Shown piece by piece: positions 1,198 to 6,217 of a DNA stretch of 64,000 nucleotides; the stretch's first letter is position 1; every line of letters starts with the position of its first letter. The translations under genes were made by a program, and so were the position numbers. The DNA is from Yoonia sp. (lineage in GTDB: Bacteria; Pseudomonadota; Alphaproteobacteria; Rhodobacterales; Rhodobacteraceae). The DNA lies in the NCBI RefSeq assembly GCF_018402175.1, contig NZ_JAGYJK010000007.1, forward strand, positions 1 to 64,000, given 5' to 3'. The notes below the pieces were generated by a model that saw only the letters and a list, made by a program, of their open reading frames with translations, was not told the origin of the DNA and made no database searches.

Positions 1198-1698
1198 ATG
1201 CCCTATCAATGGACCCCCGAACACCCCAATGACGGCCCCGACTGGCAATTGAGCCTGTGGCCTTATCGGTCGCTGTTGCGCAAGGATTTCGTGCTGTTCA
1301 TGGGGGCGACGGCGGCGCTGGTGGCGCTGCCGCTGATCTCGCTTTTGGGGACGGTGGTTGTCTGGGCCTTGCTGCCGTTTTTCGGGCTGATGTTCTGGGG
1401 GCTGTGGACCGCGATCAATATCAGTTACAAACGCGGCGAGGTACTGGAGGAACTAGCCGTGGATGACACAACCGCGCATCTGATCCGCCATAACCCCAAG
1501 GGCGAAAAGCTGGAATGGCACGCCAACCGCTATTGGGTGACGGTGCATCTGCATCCCAAGGGCGGGCCGGTCGAGAATTACATTACCCTGCGCGGCGGCG
1601 ACCGCGAGGTTGAAATCGGTGCGTTTCTGGATGTGTCCGAGCGGCTGGCGCTGTATGGTGATCTCAAACGCGCCTTGCGCGGCGATCAAGCATCCTGA
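1198..1698 (+). CDS. DUF2244 domain-containing membrane protein
   Basis: 166-residue protein of unknown function. It begins with the family's WQLSLWPYRSLLRKDF pattern, then has two adjacent hydrophobic stretches (about residues 37-80) forming a probable membrane hairpin, followed by a soluble part (YWVTVHLHPKGGPVENYITLRGG) rich in beta-strand character. The ATG at 1198 is chosen over the upstream in-frame ATG (1096) because GAGG lies 8 bases before it and family members start at this point. The gene ends just before a dispersed repeat and converges with yqeY. Confidence 0.85.
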   Translation: MPYQWTPEHPNDGPDWQLSLWPYRSLLRKDFVLFMGATAALVALPLISLLGTVVVWALLPFFGLMFWGLWTAINISYKRGEVLEELAVDDTTAHLIRHNPKGEKLEWHANRYWVTVHLHPKGGPVENYITLRGGDREVEIGAFLDVSERLALYGDLKRALRGDQAS

Positions 1699-1718
1699 CC
1701 GGAAACAGAAACTTTTAT

Positions 1719-1758
1719 GCCTCCGGCGGGGATATTTAGGCTCGGAAGATGATGAAAG
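1719..1758 (+). repeat. Dispersed gene-end repeat, copy 1 (CCTCCGGCGGGGATATTT type)
   Basis: GCCTCCGGCGGGGATATTT followed by AGGCTCGGAAGATGATGAAAG. It lies between the convergent ends of the DUF2244 gene and yqeY. Related copies are at 12387, 25599 and 40707. The first half can fold into a weak GC hairpin followed by a short T-rich run, so a role in termination is possible but unproven. Confidence 0.7.
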
Positions 1759-1761
1759 AGG

Positions 1762-2223
1762 CTATCCCAGCCGCGATTTGACCATGGGGCCGGCCTTGGC
1801 AAAATCCATCTGGCCGGTGTATTTGGTTTTCAGTTCCGCCATCACCTTGCCCATGTCGCGGATACTGGTGGCACCGACCGCAGCGATGGCCGCATCCACG
1901 GCAGATTCGGCTTCGGCATCGGACAGCTGACGGGGCAGGAATTCCTCGATCACCTTGATCTCGGCCAGTTCTTTTTCGGCAAGTTCCAGTCTGCCGCCTT
2001 CTTCATAGGCGCGCGCGCTTTCCTGCCGTTGCTTGACCATCCGGCCCATGATCGCAAGGACATCGGCGTCGGACAGCCCTGCGGCTTCGTCAGCGGTGCC
2101 GCGCATGGCGATGTCGCGGTCCTTGATCGCCGCGTTAATCAGGCGCAGCGTGGACAGCCTGTCGGCTTCTTTCGCTCTCATCGCATCGGTCAGTGCCGTC
2201 GTGATCCGGTCGCGCAGCTGCAT
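1762..2223 (-). CDS. yqeY: GatB/YqeY domain protein
   Basis: 153-residue cytosolic helical protein of the YqeY family, related to the tail domain of GatB that contacts tRNA. Seen are MQLRDRITTALTDAMRAKE at the start, STLRLINAAIKDRDIA, then IKVIEEFLPRQLSDAE and the family's C-terminal DMGKVMAELKTKY. Length is normal. Its role is not settled; it may act in tRNA handling. It is transcribed divergently from carA, with a plausible promoter at 2259-2287 and AGGA upstream of the ATG. Confidence 0.92.
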   Translation of the reverse strand: MQLRDRITTALTDAMRAKEADRLSTLRLINAAIKDRDIAMRGTADEAAGLSDADVLAIMGRMVKQRQESARAYEEGGRLELAEKELAEIKVIEEFLPRQLSDAEAESAVDAAIAAVGATSIRDMGKVMAELKTKYTGQMDFAKAGPMVKSRLG

Positions 2224-2258
2224 GAAAATTCCTGTTCTTTTGCCGATAAAGAAAGTGC

Positions 2259-2287
2259 ATGCTACCCCTTTGCGCCAGCGGTGACAA
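2259..2287 (-). promoter_or_regulatory. Predicted sigma-70 promoter of yqeY
   Basis: On the minus strand TTGTCA (2287-2282) is followed by 17 bases and TAGCAT (2264-2259), ending about 36 bases before the yqeY start codon. Both boxes match the housekeeping consensus at four or more positions with ideal spacing. Prediction from pattern only. Confidence 0.45.
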
Positions 2288-2335
2288 GCAGACTGACGTG
2301 ACGGTATCCCTTATTTGCAAGGCGACACTCCGGCC

Positions 2336-2364
2336 TTGACCCTGTGGCTGTGCGCCCGTAAACC
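2336..2364 (+). promoter_or_regulatory. Predicted promoter of carA
   Basis: TTGACC (2336-2341), 17-base spacer, TAAACC (2359-2364), about 30 bases before the carA start. The -35 box is good, the -10 box weak. No pyrimidine attenuator or leader peptide is visible in the short leader. Confidence 0.35.
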
Positions 2365-2394
2365 CGCACCAATTTGACCAATGGAGATCCGCAC

Positions 2395-3543
2395 ATGACG
2401 CAGAAACCGACGGCCTGCCTTGCACTGGCGGATGGGACGATCTTTTACGGCATGGGCTTTGGCGCTGCAGGTGAAACCGTGGCCGAGCTGTGTTTCAACA
2501 CCGCGATGACGGGCTATCAGGAAATCATGACCGACCCGTCCTATGCCGGGCAGATCATCACCTTTACCTTTCCCCATATCGGCAATACCGGCGTCAATAC
2601 CGATGACGACGAAACCGCTGATCCGGTCGCGGCGGGTATGGTTGTCAAATGGGACCCGACCGAGGCGTCCAACTGGCGCGCCACAGGAGAGCTGAAAAGC
2701 TGGCTGGCCGCGCGCAACCGGATTGGTATGGGGGGCGTCGATACCCGCCGCCTGACCCGCGCGATCCGCCAGCAGGGTGCGCCGCATGTCGCCTTGGCCC
2801 ATAACCCCGATGGCGTGTTCGATCTGGAAAAACTGGTGGCCAAGGCCCGCGCCTTTGCCGGTCTGGAAGGGCTGGATCTGGCAAAGGATGTGACCTGCGC
2901 GCAATCCTATCAGTGGAACGAAATGCGCTGGGCCTGGCCCGAAGGCCATCAGCCGCAGACGCAAGCCCGCCACAAGGTTGTTGCGGTCGATTACGGGGCC
3001 AAGCGCAATATCCTGCGCTGTCTGGCCTCGGCTGGTTGCGATGTGACCGTCCTGCCCGCCAGCGCCACGGCCGAAGATGTGCTGGCCCTGAACCCCGATG
3101 GCGTGTTTCTGTCCAACGGTCCGGGCGATCCTGCGGCCACCGGTGTTTATGCCGTGCCGATGATCCAGGGCGTGCTGGCAACCGATATTCCGGTCTTTGG
3201 CATTTGTCTGGGGCATCAGATGTTGGCGCTGGCCTTGGGCGCGCGCACCATCAAGATGAACCACGGCCATCACGGGGCCAATCATCCGGTCAAGGACCGC
3301 GAGACCGGCAAGGTGGAAATCACATCGATGAACCACGGCTTTACCGTAGATAGCCAGACCCTGCCTGCGGGTGTCATCGAAACCCATGTATCGCTTTTTG
3401 ACGGGTCCAATTGCGGTATCCGCCTTGATGGCCGCCCGGTGTTCAGCGTGCAATACCACCCAGAGGCCAGCCCCGGCCCGCAGGACAGCTATTACCTGTT
3501 TGAACGGTTTGCCGAGGCGATGGATGCCCGCGCCGCGCGCTGA
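2395..3543 (+). CDS. carA: Carbamoyl-phosphate synthase small subunit (glutaminase)
   Basis: CarA hydrolyses glutamine and passes ammonia to CarB to make carbamoyl phosphate for arginine and pyrimidines. The 382-residue length equals that of the classic enzyme. The N-terminal half shows LADGTIFYGMGFG and NTAMTGYQEIMTDPSYAGQ; the class I amidotransferase half carries FLSNGPGDP, the nucleophile in VFGICLGHQMLALA, and the His/Glu pair in VQYHPEASPGP. The ATG at 2395 has GGAG 8 bases upstream; an in-frame ATG at 2374 lacks such a site. carB is not next to it. Confidence 0.97.
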   Translation: MTQKPTACLALADGTIFYGMGFGAAGETVAELCFNTAMTGYQEIMTDPSYAGQIITFTFPHIGNTGVNTDDDETADPVAAGMVVKWDPTEASNWRATGELKSWLAARNRIGMGGVDTRRLTRAIRQQGAPHVALAHNPDGVFDLEKLVAKARAFAGLEGLDLAKDVTCAQSYQWNEMRWAWPEGHQPQTQARHKVVAVDYGAKRNILRCLASAGCDVTVLPASATAEDVLALNPDGVFLSNGPGDPAATGVYAVPMIQGVLATDIPVFGICLGHQMLALALGARTIKMNHGHHGANHPVKDRETGKVEITSMNHGFTVDSQTLPAGVIETHVSLFDGSNCGIRLDGRPVFSVQYHPEASPGPQDSYYLFERFAEAMDARAAR

Positions 3544-3550
3544 GGGCGCA

Positions 3551-3566
3551 TTAACCAGTCCTTAAC
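3551..3566 (+). promoter_or_regulatory. Perfect CtrA-type binding box
   Basis: TTAA, seven bases, TTAAC: an exact match to the alphaproteobacterial CtrA recognition pattern TTAA-N7-TTAAC. It lies between the carA stop and the glycosyltransferase start, 43 bases before that ATG, a suitable position for control of the downstream gene. It is the only such match I noticed in an intergenic region of the window. Confidence 0.6.
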
Positions 3567-3608
3567 CATGCGGCGCGATACCTGATCCGGTCACGGGACA
3601 GGTGCCAT

Positions 3609-5510
3609 ATGCTTGATTTCATCACCGATTCCGCTGTTGCCGCCCGCCTGACCGATACGGATCTGGCGCTGTTGCAATCCTTGCTGGCCATGCATCTGCT
3701 GGATCAGGGACAGGCCGACCGTGCCGCAGCGGCGGCGCTGCGTCTGGATGTGCCGCTGAGCGATATATTGCTGCGCGATTGCAACCTGCCTGCACGGACA
3801 ATCGCCCGCCATCTGGCAAAAGCCCATGATGTGCAGATCATTGACCCGACCCGCCGCCCAGCCGATGCAACGCTGATCGCCCGCTGGGGCGCGCGCGCGT
3901 GTTTGTGCCGCGCGGTGCTGCCATGGCGCGACGCGCAGGGCACGGTCACGGTCCTGACCACCTGCCCCACCCGTTTCGCAGCAGCGCGCCCCGATCTGGA
4001 ACAGGTCTTTGGCCGCATCCGCATGGCGATCACCACCGAGGCCAAGCTGACAGATGCCATCGCCACACTGCATGGCCCCTGCTTTGCGGCGGATGCGGAA
4101 ACCTGCGTGCCTGCCGCCGAAAGCTGCCGGACATGGGACGCCGCCCGCACAGCCCGACTGGCGCTGGTCATGGCACTGGCCATCATGGCCTGTGCGGTCC
4201 TTGATCTGGGTGCGCTGATCATCGCAGTCACGCTTTGGGCGATGGTCGTGCTGGCGGCGACGACGCTGCTGAAAGCGGCCGCGGTGATCATCGGGATGCG
4301 CGCGCGCCCCCGCGACCCCCGCCCCGTGGCCGAGGCCGATCTGCCGGTGATCACGATGCTGGTCCCGCTTTACCGCGAAACGGCGATTGCGTCGCATCTG
4401 CTGGTGCGGCTGGCGGCGCTGCGCTATCCGCGCGCCTTGCTGGATGTCTGTCTTGTGCTGGAACAGGATGACGCGACCACCCGCGCGACGCTGGCGCGCA
4501 CCCGGCTGCCGGGCTGGATCAGGGCCATCATCGTCCCGCCCGGTCAGGTCAAGACCAAGCCACGCGCGCTGAACTATGCGCTGCCCTTTGCGCGGGGCAG
4601 CATCATCGGGGTCTGGGATGCCGAAGACGCCCCCGCCCCCGACCAGTTGCACGTCGTGGCCCGCCATTTCGCCGCCGCCGGACCGCGTGTCGCCTGCCTG
4701 CAAGGGGTGCTGGATTATTACAATGCCGGCACCAACTGGCTGACCCGCTGTTTCACCATCGAATATGCGGCATGGTTCCGCGTCGTCCTGCCGGGGCTGG
4801 CGCGGTTGGGACTGGTGGTGCCTTTGGGCGGCACGACGCTGTTTTTCCGGCGCAGCGTGCTGGAAGCCTTGGGCGCATGGGACGCGCATAACGTGACAGA
4901 GGATGCCGATCTGGGTCTGCGTCTGGCGCGGCGTGGCTATACCACCGCGCTGATCCCCACCCTGACGATGGAAGAGGCCAATGGCCGCGCCTGGCCTTGG
5001 GTCAAGCAACGCGCGCGCTGGCTGAAAGGTTACGCCGTCACCTATGGCGTCCATATGCGCAACCCTGTGCGCCTGCTGCGCGATCTGGGGCTGTGGCAAT
5101 TCATCGGGGTGCAGGTGCTGTTTCTGGGCACGCTAAGCCTGTTTGCCCTGATGCCCTTGTTCTGGTCGCTGTGGCTGATCCCGCTGGGGGTGGCACATCC
5201 GCTGCACGGCTGGCTGTCGGCAGGGGCATTCCGGGCGATGACCTATGCGTTTATCGCGGCCGAGGCGCTGGCCTTGCTGGTCAATCTTGTCGGGCTCCAC
5301 AAGGCGGGCCGTCTGCGGCTGTGGGGCTGGGCGCTGACGCTGCCGGTCTATTTTCCGCTGGGCACGCTGGCGGCCTATCGCGGGCTGGCGGAACTGGCCA
5401 CAAGGCCGTTCTATTGGGACAAGACCGCGCATGGCGTGGTGCTGACGGGGCTGAAACCGCCCGCTAATCTGCCGCCTCGACCTTTGCCGCATCCAGTTTC
5501 AACCGCGTGA
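3609..5510 (+). CDS. Membrane glycosyltransferase (GT2) with GspE-N-like N-terminal domain
   Basis: 633-residue probable polysaccharide synthase. Residues about 1-150 resemble the N-terminal domain found in type II secretion/pilus ATPases (MshEN/GspE-N type), without the full cyclic-di-GMP motif that I can see. Two hydrophobic segments (about 180-225) precede a processive family 2 glycosyltransferase core: the DAED motif at 337-340, TED at 430-432 and QRARW at 467-471. At least three further membrane segments follow. The product is likely an exported or capsular polysaccharide, donor sugar unknown. A CtrA box sits just upstream. The 3' end overlaps the convergent GntR gene by 47 bases. Confidence 0.85.
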   Translation: MLDFITDSAVAARLTDTDLALLQSLLAMHLLDQGQADRAAAAALRLDVPLSDILLRDCNLPARTIARHLAKAHDVQIIDPTRRPADATLIARWGARACLCRAVLPWRDAQGTVTVLTTCPTRFAAARPDLEQVFGRIRMAITTEAKLTDAIATLHGPCFAADAETCVPAAESCRTWDAARTARLALVMALAIMACAVLDLGALIIAVTLWAMVVLAATTLLKAAAVIIGMRARPRDPRPVAEADLPVITMLVPLYRETAIASHLLVRLAALRYPRALLDVCLVLEQDDATTRATLARTRLPGWIRAIIVPPGQVKTKPRALNYALPFARGSIIGVWDAEDAPAPDQLHVVARHFAAAGPRVACLQGVLDYYNAGTNWLTRCFTIEYAAWFRVVLPGLARLGLVVPLGGTTLFFRRSVLEALGAWDAHNVTEDADLGLRLARRGYTTALIPTLTMEEANGRAWPWVKQRARWLKGYAVTYGVHMRNPVRLLRDLGLWQFIGVQVLFLGTLSLFALMPLFWSLWLIPLGVAHPLHGWLSAGAFRAMTYAFIAAEALALLVNLVGLHKAGRLRLWGWALTLPVYFPLGTLAAYRGLAELATRPFYWDKTAHGVVLTGLKPPANLPPRPLPHPVSTA

Positions 5511-6117
5511 CAAAAGCGGCAGAGATGTGATCGCGCAGCGCCTTATAAGCAGCGTCACCATCACCCGCCGCAATCGCCGCGACAATATCGGCATGTTCCT
5601 GCAAGGTCTGCGCACCGCGCCCTTCGGCAGCCAGCGACGTGGTGGCCAGCAAGGCCATCGACCGATGCACAAGGTCCAACTGCTGCACCAGATAGCGGTT
5701 ATGCGACGCCAGATGGATCTGCTTGTGAAACCGCCGGTTCGCGCGGCTGAGCGCGGATGGATCATTGATCAGCCTTTTGTCGGCCTCCAGCATGTCCTGC
5801 AAAACCCGCACTTCTTCGGGGGCGGCGTGGCGCGCGGCCAGACGGGCGGCCAACCCTTCCAACTCGCCGCGCACGACGTAAAGTTCGGACAATTGCGAAT
5901 GATCCAGCGAAGCCACGATCAGCGACCGGCCATCGCGGGTCAGCAAGGATTGTGTTTCCAGCCGCTGCAACGCCTCGCGGATCGGGGTGCGCGACACGCC
6001 GAACCGTTCGGCCAATTCGCTTTCGACCAGCCTGTCGCCAGGTTTATAAAGGTGGCTGTCGATCGCCTCCAGTATCAGGGCATAGGCGTCTTTCTGGGAT
6101 TGTCGCGGGTCTTGCAT
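5464..6117 (-). CDS. GntR-family transcriptional regulator (FadR/FCD type)
   Basis: 217-residue DNA-binding regulator. The winged helix-turn-helix (about residues 8-70) shows YKPGDRLVESELAERFGVSRTPIREAL. The all-helical FCD effector domain follows, with likely metal or ligand residues in RRFHKQIHLASHN, the His of EHADIVAAI and that of LRDHISAAF. The start at 6117 (MQDPRQSQ) fits family alignments and has AGG upstream; an extension to 6156 is possible. It diverges from the HAD phosphatase gene and may control it or neighbours. The effector is unknown. Confidence 0.92.
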   Translation of the reverse strand: MQDPRQSQKDAYALILEAIDSHLYKPGDRLVESELAERFGVSRTPIREALQRLETQSLLTRDGRSLIVASLDHSQLSELYVVRGELEGLAARLAARHAAPEEVRVLQDMLEADKRLINDPSALSRANRRFHKQIHLASHNRYLVQQLDLVHRSMALLATTSLAAEGRGAQTLQEHADIVAAIAAGDGDAAYKALRDHISAAFVTRLKLDAAKVEAAD

Positions 6118-6217
6118 CGGTGAACCTGTCGTTGTTCCCAAGACCTTACGCCGCATGCGCCGCCGCAGGCAAGCCCAAGCAGTTGCACCCCGACAAGTGG
6201 CAGATTACCAAAGGGGC

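Follow-up and report, generated by a model that had tools for sequence, protein, structure and literature searches.

The locus lies in the window, i.e., the whole 64-kb stretch of Yoonia DNA that was analyzed. It consists of a gene for a glycosyltransferase of the GT2 type, an upstream gene on the same strand which, judged by its sequence, is presumably carA, and a convergent downstream gene that presumably encodes a GntR-type regulator, named in the same way. Between carA and the synthase gene stands the sequence TTAACCAGTCCTTAAC, the sole match to the perfect CtrA pattern in the window (0.02 expected from shuffles). The earlier note had described a perfect CtrA box before a glycosyltransferase gene, and this is real, unique in the window and conserved (see below). 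Its placing of the box upstream of the start codon also stands, but the distance to the ATG at 3609 is 42 bases and not 43. No consensus sigma-70 promoter and no intrinsic terminator were found within positions 3400-3800 of the window. The features of the locus are summarized in Table 1.

Table 1. Features of the carA - synthase - gntR region (positions in the window)
Feature	Position	Strand	Remarks
carA, upstream neighbour (presumed)	2374..3543	+	start from the ORF list; stop codon 8 bp upstream of the box
CtrA box, TTAA-N7-TTAAC (direct repeat TTAACC-N5-TTAACC)	3551..3566	+	exact in 139/159 gene copies
-10-like element, ATACCT	3578..3583	+	A at 3578 is the conserved A; T of the family pattern displaced here
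Inverted repeat/hairpin	3579..3604	+	5' arm 3579-3589 and 3' arm 3594-3604 (A3585 and A3598 unpaired), loop 3590-3593
Predicted transcription start	3589..3590	+	+38/39 from the box start, placed by R. sphaeroides fla2 promoter geometry (PMC6180460)
GT2 synthase, processive type, N-terminal MshEN-fold domain, 633 aa	3609..5510	+	
MshEN-fold domain (residues 16-164) that has lost its c-di-GMP motif residues	3654..4100	+	Foldseek to MshE 5htl_B, TM 0.76 (target); PilF GSPII domains
GT2 catalytic domain, DAED / TED / QRARW motifs	4350..5027	+	PF13641 at residues 248-473
Convergent GntR-type regulator gene (presumed)	5464..6156	-	runs into the 3' end of the synthase gene

The synthase matches the Pfam GT2 family with an E-value of 6.1e-27, and its DAED (residues 337-340), TED (430-432) and Q467/R470/W471 are invariant in 20 aligned sequences. 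The model of the whole protein (pLDDT 86.9) contains long helices and finds its best structural matches in cellulose and hyaluronan synthases. The GT2 motifs are shared with BcsA and the hyaluronan synthases as well, but identity is only about 11-20% in the best-ranked matches, and PilZ is not among the Pfam matches of the synthase. Motifs and structural matches together bear out the proposal of a membrane polysaccharide synthase, and the enzyme likely makes a polysaccharide. The nearest named relatives are from Yoonia vestfoldensis SKA53 (95% identical) and DSM 16212 (82%), and they point to Yoonia as the genus of the window. NfrB of E. coli is described as a c-di-GMP-activated MshEN glycosyltransferase, an exopolysaccharide synthase of the phage N4 receptor system (PMC8669469). 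As far as that description goes, both enzymes are membrane GT2 proteins that have motifs of the DxD, TED and QxxRW types and a fused MshEN domain. The domain is C-terminal in NfrB, whereas it is N-terminal in the window synthase, which also differs in lacking the c-di-GMP residues, in standing under a CtrA box and in having carA and gntR as neighbours. Against the NCBIfam NfrB model the window synthase reaches an E-value of 0.017 only.

The rarity of the box alone proves nothing, because the perfect pattern is no commoner in the whole 3.0-Mb genome than its reversed control: 12 matches at 11 places, one of which is matched on both strands, compared with 14 for the reversed pattern. The genome scan for CtrA boxes recommended in the earlier note, run here with the perfect pattern, thus gave no genome-wide excess, and the count was dropped as support. 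The strength of the observation lies in the conservation of the box in orthologues. Further perfect boxes in the same genome were recorded near rpoN (36 bp before it), chpT (about 305 bp before it; L006 around 1501-2396), gmk, a subtilase gene, a PAS-domain gene (before it; L009 around 1501-3014) and others; with start codons uncurated, they serve as leads. Perfect boxes also occur close to gmd, which encodes GDP-mannose dehydratase and has a DUF2793 gene as its neighbour, and close to a Wzz-domain gene (L008, L011); this suggests that further polysaccharide genes may be under CtrA.

Conservation was assessed in the family and in the genus. A protein search at E 0.001 matched 138 of the 149 family genomes and 42 of the 56 genus genomes. 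The weak matches (G017, G119 and G122 in the family; G161, G168 and G190 in the genus) are probably other glycosyltransferases; without them 135 family and 39 genus genomes remain, some of the copies being fragments. The best copy was fetched from 129 of the 138 matching family genomes and from 38 of the 42 matching genus genomes, the rest being weak or fragmentary. A total of 171 copies were fetched and 159 entered the box count. Left out were L177-L180 (below 325 bits) and the partial or misplaced L145, L152, L164, L171, L176 and L181-L183; L170, a second copy in its genome and without a box, was kept. Distant second copies of the synthase in some genomes (L170, L177-L180, about 33-37% identical) have no exact box. 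The span searched extended from 200 bp before the open frame to the start of the aligned protein.

The earlier note had made its reading depend on the box being kept upstream of orthologues, and it is kept. Exact TTAA-N7-TTAA precedes the gene in 139/159 copies (33/34 from the genus, 106/125 from elsewhere in the family), and the count is 156/159 if one mismatch is allowed. Tiles of equal size from other parts of these loci gave 2/2157 exact matches and 24/2157 with at most one mismatch. Spacers of other lengths (0-6 and 8-20) were each found in 0 to 12 of the 159 copies, and 100 dinucleotide shuffles gave a mean of 0.16 exact boxes. In 105 of the 139 copies the distance from the box start to the chosen start codon is 54-69 bases. 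A named set of loci, which overlaps the first sample and from which three too-short loci were dropped, gave 71/77 exact boxes and 76/77 with at most one mismatch. The box observation is thereby confirmed. Other alphaproteobacterial families were represented by 27 homologous loci (L186-L212), many of them distant or partial and two beginning at a contig edge; none contains an exact box. Two of these, L192 and L198, carry a box with one mismatch, 53-54 bases upstream of the start, which argues against a clean gain of the box within the family; its origin may predate the family. In twelve copies (L015, L034, L076, L079, L082, L090, L095, L102, L105, L123, L134, L172) the box is doubled or tripled, mostly at 11-bp intervals.

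The gene order carA, box, synthase gene, convergent gntR is fixed. In 155/159 copies the gene is preceded by a carA match on the same strand, and in 145/159 it is followed by a gntR match on the opposite strand; the median distance from carA stop to box is 20 bp (137 copies). The genome that contains the window encodes CtrA itself (G000:C13:141637-142308, 415.8 bits, cut-off 350). In the family, 137 of 149 genomes score above the cut-off of the CtrA model NF045991, and three more (G006, G022, G088) have partial matches. The other nine have CtrA-model matches of E 1e-31 to 1e-47 only. Eight of these nine (G014, G029, G033, G059, G090, G102, G109, G136; G033 is 74% complete) have no recognisable CtrA, no GGDEF domain and no synthase match at E 0.001. 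The ninth, G008 (82% complete), has no clear CtrA match, yet the synthase gene is present. Among the remaining 141 genomes the synthase match is strong (E 1e-70 or better) in 135, weak in three (G017, G119, G122) and absent in three (G001, G115, G146); four of these six are only 76-83% complete, G115 and G146 being at 81-83%. Ignoring relatedness, Fisher's test gives p 6e-10 for the co-occurrence of CtrA and synthase, or 5e-9 if G008 is counted as CtrA-less. On a carA tree, a single-gene tree in which seven of the eight genomes could be placed, the CtrA-less state requires four changes. The co-loss is not specific to CtrA, because the eight CtrA-less genomes also have no GGDEF domains. As these lineages shed other signalling genes too, the co-occurrence is a correlation.

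When the family promoters are aligned on the box, their consensus is TTAACC-N5-TTAACC. In 99/139 promoters there is an A 12-13 bases past the box (+27 or +28, counted from the box start), with a T four positions after it (+31 or +32, respectively). The same A..T pattern is found in 2-27 of the 139 at offsets outside this peak. The window copy fails the strict pattern, with the A present and the T absent. The CtrA (fla2) promoters of R. sphaeroides are described as having an invariant A at -11 and a start 23-24 nt after the site (PMC6180460). From this geometry we infer the start of transcription given in Table 1. In the features described, the family promoters agree with these in the site near -35, the conserved A at -11 and the predicted distance to the start. 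They differ in that the target here is a polysaccharide synthase and that an inverted repeat spans the predicted start.

The box could also belong to another regulator with a site similar to TTAACC-N5-TTAACC, or CtrA could repress here; we consider either improbable. Both draw on the fact that binding of CtrA at the box is deduced from sequence comparison, and an Fnr/Dnr site in D. shibae is described as sharing a half-site with CtrA (PMC7232146). However, the spacer of 7 is that of CtrA, and the gene is present in just one genome without recognisable CtrA, the incomplete G008. Repression fits poorly with the position of the site near -35, where CtrA of Caulobacter activates, since repressor half-sites are described there as overlapping the -10 (PMC6180460). 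Control of the synthase gene by CtrA, as the earlier note had proposed, is strongly supported by the conservation of the box in orthologues and is very likely; activation rather than repression is likely. The absence of the word 'glycosyl' from the main text of two D. shibae / R. capsulatus CtrA papers counts against it. A full-text literature search, covering main texts and few subscription papers, did not find the synthase gene as a CtrA target. The R. capsulatus capsule gene rcc01932, linked to receipt of the gene transfer agent (GTA), was considered as the orthologue and dropped in view of its description as 'repeat unit chain initiation'.

The N-terminal part of the synthase had been compared in the earlier note with the domain of secretion ATPases (GspE-N-like), and a fused MshEN fold is found both by Pfam (PF05157, 25.1 bits, cut-off 23.1, residues 74-152) and by structure. 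Modelled alone, the domain reaches pLDDT 89.5, and its top 20 structural matches are MshEN/GSPII-type domains of PilF, MshE, PilB and XpsE, including MshE with c-di-GMP (5htl). One of the top matches, 2D27, belongs to a protein said to have lost c-di-GMP binding (PMC5013675). The c-di-GMP motif is described as two copies of RLGxx(L/V/I)(L/V/I)xxG(L/V/I)(L/V/I)xxxxLxxxLxxQ, 24 residues each (PMC5013675). Six key positions of it, four Gly and two Gln, were scored in 157 copies and 10 outgroup homologues. The window copy scores 0/6, with all four Gly and both Gln replaced. The comparison with MshE structures suggested in the earlier note therefore upholds the fold but not the binding site, and sensing of a nucleotide by the window copy, which the note had considered possible, is unlikely. 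All 33 genus copies score at most 2 of 6, with 17/33 at 0, and not even one relaxed motif was found among 35 genus copies (0/35, one of them a fragment). Elsewhere in the family 51/124 copies score 5-6 and 49/124 at most 2; in 12 family copies most of the motif is gapped, which may partly reflect the choice of start codon. Six of the ten outgroups score 5-6, which suggests that the ancestor carried the motif. In a tree built from the catalytic domain, at least 18 changes between the intact and the lost state are counted, losses and gains pooled. Absence of c-di-GMP signalling as the cause of sensor loss was ruled out, as GGDEF domains are present in 56/56 genus genomes.

An exact box is kept in 42/51 copies with an intact, 23/24 with a middle and 72/82 with a lost sensor. 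A tie between sensor loss and box loss was dropped, there being no clear link. As both intact and lost copies keep the exact box, the box is constant and the c-di-GMP motif is variable. That the enzyme is nevertheless under allosteric c-di-GMP control, as in NfrB, with CtrA as a second layer, would be compatible with the MshEN fold, with the GGDEF domains encoded throughout the genus (four in the genome of the window) and with the 51 family copies outside the genus that keep at least five of the six key residues. In view of the score of the window copy, the low scores of all 33 genus copies and the 12 gapped family copies, some of which may be an effect of start-codon choice, this is very improbable.

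The inverted repeat of Table 1 covers the Shine-Dalgarno-like GGGACAGG with its 3' arm. The 26-nt hairpin of the window has a predicted energy of -12.4 kcal/mol (z -2.72); a wider fold of positions 3567-3629 is not unusual (z -0.54). Across the 139 promoters, the stretch between +30 and +60, counted from the box, forms a more stable fold than its shuffles do (mean z -1.41), compared with mean values of -0.43 to 0.29 for five other segments. The arms vary in sequence among the relatives compared, which argues against a protein-binding site. The effect of the 5' arm on read-through RNA was computed for 111 of the 139 promoters (50-76 bases from box to start) with one folding program, the predicted start site and uncurated start codons. 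The ribosome-binding region has an unpaired probability of 0.34 in read-through RNA and 0.53 in RNA from the predicted start, versus 0.43-0.44 with a shuffled arm. The start region is less accessible than with a shuffled arm in 87/111 promoters (mean z -1.15), related copies for which the p value of the read-through test overstates, and a repeat with new shuffles gave 94/111 (mean z -1.24). Control starts, which were derived from alignments and not obtained for every copy, had mean z values of 0.27 for carA (152), 0.04 for yqeY (101), -0.08 for gntR (76) and 0.09 for a HAD gene (40). In the minimum-energy structures 92/111 promoters have at least five bases of the start region paired at or upstream of +39, versus a mean of 68 and a maximum of 78 with shuffled arms (20 rounds). 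The pairing partners of the start region center on about +27 to +40. When the 5' end of the RNA is moved from 0 to +39, the accessibility increases from 0.32 to 0.54. The values for the window are 0.17 in read-through RNA and 0.38 from the predicted start (z -3.3). The effect of the hairpin is moderate on average.

Another explanation accepts the CtrA promoter and the synthase as proposed, and takes the repeat for an ordinary structure of the 5' leader, serving stability or as a constitutive brake, with transcription starting further upstream. The fold excess at +30 to +60 in the 139 promoters would be expected from such a leader, the start site is a predicted one, and the -10 of the window is poor. 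The A..T pairs of the family are placed as expected for a -10 with a start at +38/39, however, and the distance from site to start agrees with the 23-24 nt described for the fla2 promoters (PMC6180460). The pairing partners, too, are centered around that start. The leader explanation is therefore unlikely, although it is the strongest of the alternatives. A precedent for an insulating hairpin is given by sigG of B. subtilis and late genes of phage T4, in which a hairpin is described as hiding the ribosome site in read-through RNA only (PMC5942855, PMC2988022). In the present repeat, too, the 5' arm precedes the predicted transcription start of the gene itself and the 3' arm lies over the ribosome-binding region. 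In contrast to them it is a predicted device, found across one alphaproteobacterial family at a CtrA promoter and with variable arm sequences.

The account that we favor, and consider reasonably probable as a whole, is a CtrA-activated synthase with a repeat that blocks translation of read-through RNA and a decayed sensor. Phosphorylated CtrA would bind the box at -35 and activate the promoter, with transcription starting about 38 bases past the first T of the box. The product would be an inner-membrane glycosyltransferase of the processive type that makes a surface polysaccharide and probably extrudes the polymer. Transcripts of carA could run into the synthase gene, because the carA stop codon lies few bases upstream and no terminator was found. 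For such read-through RNA we infer a block in translation: the segment between the -10 and the start would pair with the ribosome-binding region. RNA started at the CtrA promoter would escape the block because the 5' arm is missing from it, and so would be translated. The enzyme would then be made mainly while CtrA is active. The MshEN domain was probably a c-di-GMP sensor in the ancestor; with the binding residues lost in the genus, control would rest on transcription.

The locus was also inspected in the 14 genus genomes without a synthase match, where the carA match is followed directly by the gntR match. Eight of them (L294, L295, L297, L300, L301, L303, L304, L306) have an exact box overlapping the carA stop codon, CAAATT at the -10 and then about 90 bases of conserved non-coding sequence; the other six have neither box nor conserved stretch. 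A covariance model built from the eight identified two more genomes (G161, G190; L324, L325), both with an exact box and weak synthase matches. Among the 56 genomes it gave no match in those with a strong synthase match, with filters that can lose weak ones. In total, ten Yoonia genomes without the synthase keep the box before the conserved stretch. Of the consensus pairs 2/30 have changes on both sides, and fold energies relative to shuffles are mixed (z -2.3 to +0.7 over the whole length, -1.3 to +1.7 for a shorter part). A search of the eight loci with Rfam gave nothing at the carA-gntR stretch and nine weak matches elsewhere, all below the gathering scores. The stretch is suggestive of a CtrA-driven small RNA and is put forward as a candidate.

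More tentatively, the same arrangement may be a device of the whole family: a CtrA promoter with a structure-conserved repeat would silence read-through from carA, the ancestral c-di-GMP sensor would have decayed many times, and some promoters in Yoonia would have outlived their gene and may drive a small structured RNA. We regard this extension as possible, with the balance somewhat against it. A likely CtrA target, the gene of a surface-polysaccharide synthase, is kept at one place in most Rhodobacteraceae sampled. The locus would offer a case of an enzyme whose second-messenger sensor decays repeatedly while the promoter stays fixed. The predicted read-through insulator would be a cheap mechanism for genes that are set tightly behind housekeeping genes.
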